From: an uncultured Pelagibacteraceae bacterium
GTDB lineage: Bacteria; Pseudomonadota; Alphaproteobacteria; Pelagibacterales; Pelagibacteraceae
Direction of reading: 5' to 3'
Length of the DNA stretch: 64,000 bases
Assembly: GCA_902585415.1 (NCBI GenBank)
Contig: CACIDN010000002.1
Coordinates: 106,158-170,157 of the forward strand
Part shown: piece after piece, positions 52,341 through 57,862 of the stretch
How positions within the stretch are numbered: the first letter of the stretch is position 1
Layout: every line of letters starts with the position of its first letter
Notes under the pieces: model-generated
What the model was told of the DNA's origin: nothing
Seen by the model: the letters and a program-made list of their open reading frames with translations, nothing else
The model's database searches: none
Program-made: the position numbers and the translations under genes

Positions 52341-52574
52341 ATGAAAAAAAACATTTTTTTTTGTGTCACAAAATATAAAGCAGGAATTATCTATAATTTT
52401 ATCAAAAAAAATGATCTAGTTCGTATAAATAAAAATTTAAAAATTTCATTCTTGTTTGATCCTGGTCTAAAAAAGCCACAATTTAAATCTGAGGTAATAT
52501 TTTCATATAAACAAAAAGATTTTGCAAAGTTTACTAGAAAAAATAATCATAAAGTTATAATTAGATATCTTTAA
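52341..52574 (+). CDS. Short ORF of unknown function (77 aa)
   Basis: A 77-residue Lys/Phe/Ile-rich ORF starting MKKNIFFCVTKYKAGIIYNF. I recognise no family. It is divergent from the epimerase gene and ends 4 bases before the next gene, which would suit a small operon partner. It could equally be the degraded N-terminal piece of a larger glycosyltransferase; the composition is normal for this genome. It has no clear membrane segment. Confidence 0.45.
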   Translation: MKKNIFFCVTKYKAGIIYNFIKKNDLVRINKNLKISFLFDPGLKKPQFKSEVIFSYKQKDFAKFTRKNNHKVIIRYL

Positions 52575-52578
52575 ACTA

Positions 52579-53445
52579 ATGAAGATATATCTAGCATCGT
52601 TTTATAGTGCAGATTTGAAAAGGTCTGCTGATAGATTTAAAGAACAAGCTTTAAAAATGGGCATATACAACTCAATTAAAATTTTTACTTTTAATGATTT
52701 AAATGAGGATTTTAAATTATATGTAAAAGAATTAATAAAAAAAGGAAAAAAAAAAGGATATGGATATTGGGTATGGCAAACTTATGTGCATCAAAATATA
52801 TTATCAAAATTAGAATATGGAGACGTATATCATTGGTGTGATGTCGGGTGTCATTTTAATGTGCAAGGAAAAAAAAGATTAGAAGATTATATAAACATTG
52901 TATCAAAAGATGAAAATGGCTTTCTTGGTTTTGATTATAGAAATTTAGAAGATGAAAGTTTTTCAGAATATAATTTTCCTAATTATTTGGAATATCAATA
53001 TACCAAAGAGGATTTATTTAAATTTTTTGATGTCCAAAAAAATTATAAAATTACTGATACCCCACAAGTTTGGGGAGGTTCGTTTTTTGTAAAAAAAACT
53101 AGAAAATCAATGGATATGATGAGACAACATTACAATATTACCAGAAATAGATTCGATTTGATTGATGATGATCCAATAAAATTTATCGAAAAATCAAGAG
53201 TTGGTTTTATTGCACACAGACATTCTCAAAGTGTATTATCAATTATTGTAAAGTTATCAAAATGCAAACTGTTATCAGCATATGAATCTGAATGGGCATT
53301 AGATAAAAACAACCAAAGAACTTTTTTACACCTAAAAAATTTTCCTATAATTGCAAGAAGAGATAAGAGAAAAAATATTTTTTTAAGATTTATAGATAGA
53401 CAGATAAGAACATTTAATAGATATAAAAATAAATTTAGATTATAA
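52579..53445 (+). CDS. Putative glycosyltransferase-like protein
   Basis: A 288-residue soluble protein starting MKIYLASFYSADLKRSADRF. The block KGYGYWVWQTYVHQNILSKL followed by GDVYHWCDVGCHFN resembles a family of glycosyltransferase-like proteins with a GYGYWxWKPxxI ... GDxxxYxDxGC pattern seen in marine bacteria and phages; the D-x-G could bind a metal-sugar donor. A basic C-terminus (RFIDRQIRTFNRYKNKF) may bind membrane. Neither reaction nor acceptor is known. Confidence 0.55.
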   Translation: MKIYLASFYSADLKRSADRFKEQALKMGIYNSIKIFTFNDLNEDFKLYVKELIKKGKKKGYGYWVWQTYVHQNILSKLEYGDVYHWCDVGCHFNVQGKKRLEDYINIVSKDENGFLGFDYRNLEDESFSEYNFPNYLEYQYTKEDLFKFFDVQKNYKITDTPQVWGGSFFVKKTRKSMDMMRQHYNITRNRFDLIDDDPIKFIEKSRVGFIAHRHSQSVLSIIVKLSKCKLLSAYESEWALDKNNQRTFLHLKNFPIIARRDKRKNIFLRFIDRQIRTFNRYKNKFRL

Positions 53446-53526: not shown

Positions 53527-53616
53527 GGAGAGATGGCCGAGCGGTTTAAGGCGCACGCTTGGAAAGCGTGTTTAGGGGAAACTCTTTCGTGGGTTCGAAT
53601 CCCACTCTCTCCGCCA
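53527..53616 (+). tRNA. tRNA-Ser (GGA)
   Basis: A 90-nt class II tRNA. Acceptor GGAGAGA pairs with TCTCTCC, discriminator G, CCA encoded. D arm TGGCCGAGCGGTTTAAGGC, anticodon stem CACGC/GCGTG with loop TTGGAAA gives GGA for UCC/UCU, long variable arm, and T arm GTGGGTTCGAATCCCAC. It forms the left edge of the insert described in the findings. Confidence 0.98.
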
Positions 53617-53629
53617 ATTATTTGGTGAA

Positions 53630-54547
53630 TTAATTCTTTATAACCAATCGACTTATTGGCATTGCAAATCGCCCTTGATCTTTAAATATTCTGCGATTTT
53701 TTGATGTGGTGATTAAACTAGATAATTTTGAAATCATCGAGCTGTGGGCCTTTGGGTGTAAAATGAACGAAGCGTAAAAAAAACCAGCAGCCGTTCTTGT
53801 TACTTCATCAATAGGGCCCTCCATAGAAACTACATTAGTATCTATTTTCACAGTTGCATCTGGAAAAATTTCAGTTGCAAGATTAATCAAACTATCGTTA
53901 TTACGAATTCTGGGATCGCCTAATTCAATCTCACCATAATCAGGAAGCTCATCTTGTACATATTCGTATATCAAATCATGTACATCAGAATATCCTGGAG
54001 CTGCATTCATTGGTCCATTAACTAAAGCTGCGAACTGTCCACCTGAACATAGTACACGACGCACCTCATTTAAAACTGGAATAATTGGATCCATTAGTGT
54101 CAAAGCCCAATGACATAGTACTACATCTAATGAGTTATCATTGATTGCTTTCAAATTTTGAGCTTTTGATTGAAATAAATTAACTTCGTAATCTGATATA
54201 CGCTCTCTTGCAAGTGCTAATTCCTCTGGACTTACATCTATTCCTGTTAGTTTAAGATCTATACTTCGATTGTATAAAATTTTTAGTAACGGTCCTGATC
54301 CACAAGCAAGATCTAAGACACGTGTGCCATTAATGTTAGGCACAATTTCAGCTAGCCACTCATAACTATTAAGTCCAGACCGATCACGACAGCTGCTTGC
54401 GCATTTCTCAGTGAAGCCAGTATGATGTTTATGTATAGTTTTTAAATGAGCTAGAAGCGCTTTACTGTCTGGCCTTTTATTATTAGCAATACTATCAGTC
54501 CAGACTGAGGTTAGGCTATTATGATCATTTATATTTTTAATTGTCAT
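53630..54547 (-). CDS. Class I SAM methyltransferase (island cargo)
   Basis: A 305-residue methyltransferase. The SAM motif is RVLDLACGSGPLLKILYN, motif II GIDVSPEELALARERI, then DVVLCHWALTLMDPIIPVL and EVRRVLCSGGQFAAL, the type 11 fold. The track start is a TTG; the ATG at 54547 overlaps the end of the dioxygenase gene by 11 bases. Arginine codons CGT and CGG (for example in SSCRDRSG) are frequent, unlike the AGA-dominated neighbours, and a hand count of 54361-54420 gave 29 G+C in 60. Likely acquired by transfer; substrate unknown. Confidence 0.85.
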   Translation of the reverse strand: MTIKNINDHNSLTSVWTDSIANNKRPDSKALLAHLKTIHKHHTGFTEKCASSCRDRSGLNSYEWLAEIVPNINGTRVLDLACGSGPLLKILYNRSIDLKLTGIDVSPEELALARERISDYEVNLFQSKAQNLKAINDNSLDVVLCHWALTLMDPIIPVLNEVRRVLCSGGQFAALVNGPMNAAPGYSDVHDLIYEYVQDELPDYGEIELGDPRIRNNDSLINLATEIFPDATVKIDTNVVSMEGPIDEVTRTAAGFFYASFILHPKAHSSMISKLSSLITTSKNRRIFKDQGRFAMPISRLVIKN

Positions 54548-55532
54548 CAACTGGCCAACAAATTGGATTTAGGGGGCTAGCGGCTATATCACCTGGTTTT
54601 ACATTAGGCATAAATTTTTGCCAATCTCCAGATACCATTGTGGGAGAATTAATCACTCGTGCTCCATCTCTGTAATAAGTATTTGCTAAAGCAATACGGC
54701 TACGACTAGTTCCATTTCGTGAAGCGGTATGAAAATTTAAATTGTGGTGAAAGCTTACTTCGCCCAACTCGAATGGAGTTTCATTCACTGAAACCCTATT
54801 TTTAGAGAACACTTCAGCCACTCCTCTGTCATAGCTAGAACCTTTCTTTTCAAATTTTATAGCATTAACTAGTTTATGTACATCAAGCGGGTAGGCAAAA
54901 GAAAGAGGTCCCATCTCGAGAGGGGTTGGTTGAGCTGGTATCCAAGCAGTAACCACGTCATTAGTGTCTAACGGAAAATGATGGTCGTCATAGTGCCATG
55001 GGGTTCTACCACAACCAGATTGTTTTGCTAAAACATTATCATGATACAATCTAATTTTTGAAACTCCAAGCAAATCTGCTGAAATTTGCCCCAGTCTTGG
55101 TGATAACACATAAGATCGCAGCAATTTATTTTCAAGCCAGATCATTTCAAGACTAAGAAACCGATCATTGGCACCTTTATCAGGATCAACATTGAATTCT
55201 TTTTTTAATAGATTTATTAATTCAGCTCTGAGTTTTAAAACGGTTCCAGGAGTGAAAACTTTCTTAAGTTTGATGAAGCCGTTTTTTCTAAAGAAAATGA
55301 TTTGATCATTTTTTAGAGTATAAGTTTCAGCTAACTCTGATACAATTTCATCATCACTTGGAATTTTGACATTTGGCAATGGTTTGGATTTGATAATTTT
55401 ACATTTTGAATTTTTGTTATCTGCAAGACCTACATACCAATCCCACCAAGCCTGGTTATTACTATCCCAAGGTTTGCTTATATCGTTTGGGTCAGATTTT
55501 TCGAAGTTTATTTTATCTTGAACAATTTTCAT
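54537..55532 (-). CDS. Phytanoyl-CoA dioxygenase (PhyH)-like Fe(II)/2-oxoglutarate oxygenase (island cargo)
   Basis: A 331-residue oxygenase. The metal site is TPWHYDDHHFPLD (HxD) with the distal histidine in LNFHTASRNGTSRSRIAL, which also supplies the arginine that binds 2-oxoglutarate. VVTAWIPAQPTPLEMGPLSF is the PhyH core strand region. PhyH relatives hydroxylate fatty acyl-CoAs, osmolytes, phosphonates and natural products. Start at the ATG near the degenerate tRNA; the gene is coupled to the methyltransferase. Arg codons CGA/CGT in the NGTSRSRI stretch again differ from the host style. Confidence 0.84.
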   Translation of the reverse strand: MKIVQDKINFEKSDPNDISKPWDSNNQAWWDWYVGLADNKNSKCKIIKSKPLPNVKIPSDDEIVSELAETYTLKNDQIIFFRKNGFIKLKKVFTPGTVLKLRAELINLLKKEFNVDPDKGANDRFLSLEMIWLENKLLRSYVLSPRLGQISADLLGVSKIRLYHDNVLAKQSGCGRTPWHYDDHHFPLDTNDVVTAWIPAQPTPLEMGPLSFAYPLDVHKLVNAIKFEKKGSSYDRGVAEVFSKNRVSVNETPFELGEVSFHHNLNFHTASRNGTSRSRIALANTYYRDGARVINSPTMVSGDWQKFMPNVKPGDIAASPLNPICWPVDDN

Positions 55533-55579
55533 AAAATATAATTATACTATTTTTTGAAATTAGTAAGACTTAAGTTAGT

Positions 55580-55638
55580 CGCTTGGAAATTTTATATAGG
55601 GGAAACTTTCTTAGGCTCGAATCTGACTATCTCCACCA
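55580..55638 (+). pseudogene. Degenerate copy of the tRNA-Ser 3' half (likely att remnant)
   Basis: CGCTTGGAAA, then GGGGAAACT, then TTC..TAGGCTCGAATC and CTCCACCA align with the tRNA-Ser segment 53556-53616. My hand alignment matches 47 of 59 bases with a 2-base gap; the anticodon-loop region, the variable-arm GGGGAAACT, TCGAATC and the CCA survive. The anticodon stem and T stem no longer pair, and there is no 5' half, so it is not a tRNA gene. It is in the same orientation as the tRNA, about 2 kb away. The rest of 55533-55801 contains only a short inverted repeat AATGGA/TCCATT (55733-55749 region) and the gyrB promoter area. Confidence 0.8.

Positions 55639-55756: not shown

Positions 55757-57862
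<2,106 letters not shown>

Follow-up and report, generated by a model that had tools for sequence, protein, structure and literature searches.

Two genes only, a methyltransferase (MT) and a dioxygenase (PhyH), both on the minus strand, separate an intact tRNA-Ser(GGA) gene from a decayed, same-orientation copy of its 3′ portion in the window (the whole 64,000-nucleotide stretch of DNA analysed here; Table 1). The host assembly (G000) belongs to the Pelagibacteraceae (SAR11); this draft of 39 contigs totals 1.04 Mb, at an estimated completeness of 82%. The reading frames of MT and PhyH overlap by 14 bp, and the two genes likely form one operon. Surface-polysaccharide-type genes are found upstream of the tRNA; just before it, at 52341–53445, lie two open-reading frames (77 and 288 aa), neither of which has a Pfam match.

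Table 1 Features of the tRNA-Ser to gyrB locus, in window coordinates.
Feature	Position	Strand	Basis or remark
tRNA-Ser(GGA), intact, proximal functional gene	53527..53616	+	ARAGORN; Rfam RF00005, 60.7 bits
11-bp ATTATTTGGTG, directly after the tRNA	53617..53627	+	10/11 to each cassette left end in three relatives
MT, SAM-dependent methyltransferase, 306 aa, cargo gene 2	53630..54550	-	Methyltransf_11, E=5e-17
PhyH, PhyH-family Fe(II)/2-oxoglutarate dioxygenase, 331 aa, cargo gene 1	54537..55532	-	PF05721, E=2e-13
PhyH upstream region	55533..55567	-	Homologous to sister-genus loci up to ...AGTAAG (pairwise alignments, L177 and L178)
Decayed direct copy of tRNA-Ser nt 30–90	55580..55638	+	Displaced 3′ end, 163 bp before gyrB
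gyrB	55802..57862	+	Conserved native right neighbour; anchor outside the insert, used to locate the site in relatives

The copy aligned to the tRNA at 47 of 59 positions with a single 2-nt gap, and its local score was 51, whereas the best of 100 shuffles scored 25; under a second scoring scheme it scored 31, a value reached by 0 of 200 shuffles, the highest of which scored 11. By inspection, a doubtful and weaker match continues from nt 30 back to nt ~17 of the tRNA, reaching about 55568. ARAGORN called no tRNA at 55580–55638 and Rfam gave no match there down to E=10, so that the segment is a dead remnant.

The inserted genes differ in composition from the DNA around them. The G+C of the pair is 0.36 against 0.23–0.30 in its surroundings, with values of 0.36–0.40 inside the insert and 0.20–0.30 outside it, and arginine is encoded by CGN in 11 of 16 codons in MT and 6 of 14 in PhyH (17 of 30 together), against 64 of 662 in the 47 other genes of the window. 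An earlier note, written from the letters of this DNA, had pointed to the tRNA-Ser(GGA), to the same-orientation copy of its 3′ part and to the two lone genes with CGN codons and higher G+C, and had proposed that G+C and codon usage be computed; the ARAGORN and Rfam results, the alignment with its scores far above the shuffles, the gene calls and the measurements just given bear it out on each of these points. Orthologues of MT and PhyH are just as rich in G+C and CGN codons in all the hosts checked; composition is therefore a sign that the pair is foreign but not of when it arrived, and its use as a date was rejected.

Both enzymes look functional. The glycine-rich SAM motif of MT (LDLACGSG) is invariant across 31 orthologues, as are the three residues of the PhyH metal triad, of which HYD supplies the first His and the Asp, and the remaining one is the second His; PhyH thus has both the PF05721 match and the 2-His-1-Asp triad by which its family is recognised, and the nearest solved sequences to it are SnoK/SnoN. 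Identity among PhyH sequences was 0.84, 0.92 and 0.58 at codon positions 1, 2 and 3, and, with conservation much lower at third positions than at the other two, MT and PhyH look to be under purifying selection.

Empty and occupied sites in related genomes

For a survey of the site, gyrB was located in 121 genomes of the genus, the DNA upstream of it was taken and the gap between tRNA-Ser(GGA) and gyrB was measured. Both genes were present at 84 loci, the window's among them, and in 61 of these the gap is 98–226 bp. The tRNA of nearly all empty sites ends 98–171 bp from gyrB, a range that takes in the distance of the window's remnant, which thus lies in the tRNA's place and marks the ancestral tRNA end. 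Longer gaps mostly hold glycosyltransferase/epimerase-type genes (types judged by eye) and no tRNA repeat; being mostly surface-polysaccharide-type genes without such repeats, these occupants were rejected as elements of the same kind. The MT-PhyH pair is absent from the site in the four nearest relatives by gyrB, and a sample of about 200 genomes of the genus yielded no second case of the pair linked to a tRNA.

Close relatives carry other cargo at the window's spot. In AG-891-M18 (G068; gyrB 93%) tRNA-Ser is followed by a gene for a 287-aa GIY-YIG (T5orf172) protein and then by an exact 80-bp copy of tRNA nt 11–90, with gyrB 160 bp further on. The cassette recurs in AG-912-F23 (gyrB 93%), where the protein is 97% identical and the tRNA copy has partly decayed, and AG-422-C22 (gyrB 87%) has kept the cassette left end alone. 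It is the left ends of these three genomes that ATTATTTGGTG resembles in the window, where MT then starts, and we infer that it is an 11-bp stub of such a left end. In another lineage (G027, L141), a 23-bp copy of tRNA-Ser nt 29–51, comprising the anticodon arm only, is located between tRNA-Ser and gyrB, 214 bp before the latter.

The gene pair in a sister genus

In a sister genus (g2), tRNA-Ser(GGA), MT and PhyH occur in identical order and orientation at loci of about 18 genomes. Remnants of the tRNA 3′ end behind PhyH beat all 200 shuffles in 4 of 14 sister-genus loci; the other 10 have no statistically clear remnant, look-alikes such as GAATCCTGCTCTACGCCA not being counted. Homology between the window and the sister genus stops at 55567, immediately ahead of the remnant in the window. 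Cassettes separate the tRNA from MT in at least two genomes of the sister genus, in keeping with successive arrivals of which the newest adjoins the tRNA.

The other close copies of the pair in the window's genus, from six other genomes, adjoin egtD. In the MT tree, the window and the sister genus split from these egtD-linked copies with 100/100 support; the PhyH tree agrees weakly, and in both trees the window sits on a long branch, which indicates that the donor is unsampled. One sister-genus locus (G535, L202 2611–2698) has behind PhyH a near-complete second tRNA-Ser, in which a Ser body bears the Tyr anticodon GTA; its anticodon stem is paired, but the acceptor lacks its first three bases. 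ARAGORN calls it tRNA-Tyr, and it may be either dead or a tRNA that misreads.

A candidate cassette family at tRNA-Ser

We scanned all GTDB r220 genomes with the left-end pattern CTCTCCRCCA-N(18-48)-ACGTTAAGAT, which gave 23 matches, 16 of them in Pelagibacterales, every one with a span of 49–50; the other seven lay at scattered spans, and so act as a built-in chance control. Six cassette units were readable from end to end. On the left side, ACGTTAAGAT lies at about +30 after the tRNA and is followed by a pair of TGTCGTC repeats with 11-bp spacing, near +46 and +57, whilst on the right side a TGTCGTC pair precedes the distal copy by about 77 and 66 bp (a single repeat is left in one unit). 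The cargo consists of one to four small genes, and the distal end is an 80-bp copy of tRNA nt 11–90. Other cassette units have the variant arms TGACGCCA or TGCCGTC, which brings the arms to at least three sequence classes at the same offsets (L175, L180, L182, the second unit of L173, L177 and L178), a pattern that suggests more than one recombinase specificity. Joined as a circle, a cassette would have an arm-core-arm arrangement that looks like a complete attP site in the style of tyrosine integrases. Tandem arrays occur in AG-333-E18 (L173, 5297–8000), AG-337-I18 (L168) and AG-414-B15 (L177, 2765–5694), and their cargo differs, including GIY-YIG and Sel1/trypsin-like proteins as well as small membrane and secreted proteins with no assigned role.

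The structure of these units, from which alone we would read them as mobile, leads us to a proposal that we hold about as readily as we doubt it: SAR11 would have a family of integrase-less, attP-like cassettes of ~0.5–2 kb, ordered at the 3′ end of tRNA-Ser(GGA), moved by an integrase in trans and able to stand in tandem, at a site that MT-PhyH shares. The insert in the window has neither ACGTTAAGAT about 30 bp after the proximal tRNA, where the 11-bp ATTATTTGGTG stands alone, nor paired arms spaced 11 bp apart (TGTCGTC or variant) at either end, the arm pattern scan of the window being empty; for this reason it is not filed as a member of the family, in which its membership is not proven. 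The open-access literature searched held no description of SAR11 tRNA-Ser cassettes, an absence that is no proof of novelty.

Neither of the two genes in the insert is a site-specific recombinase. A single PF00589 protein is encoded in six of the nine cassette genomes tested, and none in the other three. Most SAR11 genomes tested encode a single tyrosine recombinase of 311–326 aa, which is a candidate helper; in G408 (L256 1108–2085) a tyrosine recombinase adjoins a glycosyltransferase-like gene. Viral contigs were scanned with four queries, of which the left-end motif, the arm pattern and the tRNA core gave zero matches, and the tRNA 3′ end alone gave 67. None of the 30 lowest-G+C matches among these 67 was a SAR11 tRNA-Ser(GGA) att site, most being other, whole tRNA-Ser genes; the phage and viral contigs scanned thus yielded no matching attP, and PhyH had no match in phage records.

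Origin of the insert

The segment 53617–55638 was probably acquired by insertion at the tRNA-Ser(GGA) 3′ end, through an integrase acting in trans and with MT-PhyH from a source related to the sister genus. The features expected of a genomic island are present: an intact tRNA, a displaced 3′ fragment in direct orientation (here decayed), empty sites in relatives and cargo of foreign composition. New DNA would enter by site-specific integration at the tRNA, restoring the gene, and the old 3′ piece would be pushed outward and then decay. The integrase would be supplied in trans, as is suggested by the integrase-less, attP-like cassettes at tRNA-Ser in SAR11, which include those at the window's spot in two close relatives, and the donor of MT-PhyH would be a lineage related to the sister genus. 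The pair perhaps replaced the interior of an older cassette, whose survivors would be the 11-bp left stub and the tRNA remnant.

The earlier note had taken the locus for the footprint of an integrative element that has since lost its integrase, or else of a tRNA duplicate that decayed. Insertion at the tRNA 3′ end is upheld by the empty sites, the distance to gyrB, the relatives without the pair and the independent elements at the same place; a former integrase of its own is not, as PF00589 is absent from the assembly (82% complete) and from the related elements read. A search for integrases at this locus in relatives, which the note had advised along with a comparison of the tRNA-Ser to gyrB interval, gave no recombinase among the cassette cargo read, whilst the interval itself proved empty in the 61 loci described above and filled with other cargo in AG-891-M18 and AG-912-F23. 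A recent arrival is likewise unproven, the pair being on a long branch and the distal copy strongly decayed.

Homologous recombination alone might have left a similar locus, either from a tandem tRNA-Ser duplicate or by RecA-mediated import of tRNA-MT-PhyH, with decay of the redundant copy and no site-specific recombinase. This would agree with the lack of an integrase in the assembly; the tRNA 3′ ends of the window and the sister genus, identical over about 30 bp, offer a possible crossover site, one sister-genus genome has its near-complete second tRNA-Ser behind PhyH, and the site borders a hypervariable surface-polysaccharide region where turnover leaves no tRNA repeats. We nevertheless consider it unlikely, as the remnants and copies mostly start at nt 10–22 and never at nt 1 (nt 4 in one sister-genus case), which is expected of att copies and not of whole-gene duplications, and the closest relatives hold a tRNA-flanked cassette with fixed arm repeats at the exact spot. 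Less probable again is ancestral retention, by which tRNA-Ser-MT-PhyH would go back to the ancestor of the family and would have survived only in the sister genus and the window's lineage, all others of the window's genus having lost it. The common tRNA and orientation, the near-equal spacing to MT (13 to about 30 bp), the grouping of window and sister genus in the MT tree and the old, decayed distal copy speak for it, but the pair is tRNA-linked nowhere else in the genus genomes sampled, the six other copies being egtD-linked, its PhyH-side neighbour in the sister genus is not gyrB, and its absence here from the four nearest gyrB relatives calls for many independent losses. The earlier note had reasoned that the segment would be ancestral if all close relatives carried the pair with matching phylogeny and the same remnant, and the nearest ones lack the pair at this site. 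That the similarity at 55580–55638 arose by chance or as an assembly artefact is hardly credible: beyond the incomplete draft in 39 contigs nothing was found to support it, the scores far exceed those of shuffles, an independent close relative has an exact copy at the matching position and orientation, the flanks are contiguous within a 170-kb contig, and the decay and divergence are unlike a chimeric join.

Relation to known elements

SAR11 is an abundant ocean bacterium with extremely streamlined genomes, from which, to our knowledge, recognised mobile elements are usually missing, so that its route of gene gain is an open question. A foreign pair flanked by tRNA sequence suggests how such tiny genomes acquire genes. 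With an arm-core-arm signature at a defined integration site, gene gain becomes searchable in any SAR11 genome or metagenome, and the same sequences could serve as bait for the missing integrase; if the cassettes are what we propose, the most abundant bacteria of the ocean would have an equivalent of integron cassettes that is built on a tRNA.

CIMEs are elements flanked by attL and attR that are mobilised in trans. The SAR11 cassettes share with them attachment sites without recombination genes and arrays formed by repeated integration at one site, but have conserved arm repeats and cargo of mostly small genes of no known role, and no parent element with matching arms was found for them. Hitcher elements have been reviewed elsewhere (PMC11389934). 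Integrase-type genomic islands at tRNA 3′ ends, as collected in Islander (PMC4383910), likewise have an intact tRNA at one end, a direct, displaced 3′ fragment at the other, foreign cargo and empty sites, whereas the insert in the window is only 2 kb long, has a decayed remnant and is without an integrase, inside it or elsewhere in the assembly. Tycheposons of Prochlorococcus and Methylophilaceae, which span 4–200 kb and encode a tyrosine recombinase (xerD; PMC10872708), share the streamlined marine host, the tRNA border and metabolic cargo; at 2 kb for the insert and about 0.5–2 kb for the SAR11 cassettes, without a recombinase, neither would count as a tycheposon. Finally, tRNA genes flank the SAR11 hypervariable region HVR4, and HVR2 has an integrase gene (PMC2217521); the window's site also borders strain-variable surface-polysaccharide genes, but that study draws no tie to tRNA-Ser cassettes.

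A link to ergothioneine genes

The neighbours of the pair in relatives from the genus are egtD and, in two loci, also egtB. The egtD gene was found in all seven of the genus genomes that have a close PhyH relative, compared with 14 of the other 194, an association weaker than it looks, since in six of these seven the genes are physically linked. From this gene neighbourhood, MT and PhyH probably act together in ergothioneine/histidine-betaine metabolism, where we infer that hercynine or ergothioneine is tailored by them. The cargo thus hints at a dioxygenase-methyltransferase pair, so far unrecognised, with ties to ergothioneine genes; a literature search found no link between PhyH and egtD. 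PhyH-MT-egtD is a recurrent SAR11 cluster (L064–L069, with egtB in L065/L066), and possibly an unrecognised ergothioneine tailoring module. In the window's own genome, egtB-egtD lies apart from the insert, at C3:82032–82928 (L156), and in the sister genus an egtD match is present in 15 of 17 genomes with the pair, a count made in pair-bearing genomes only.
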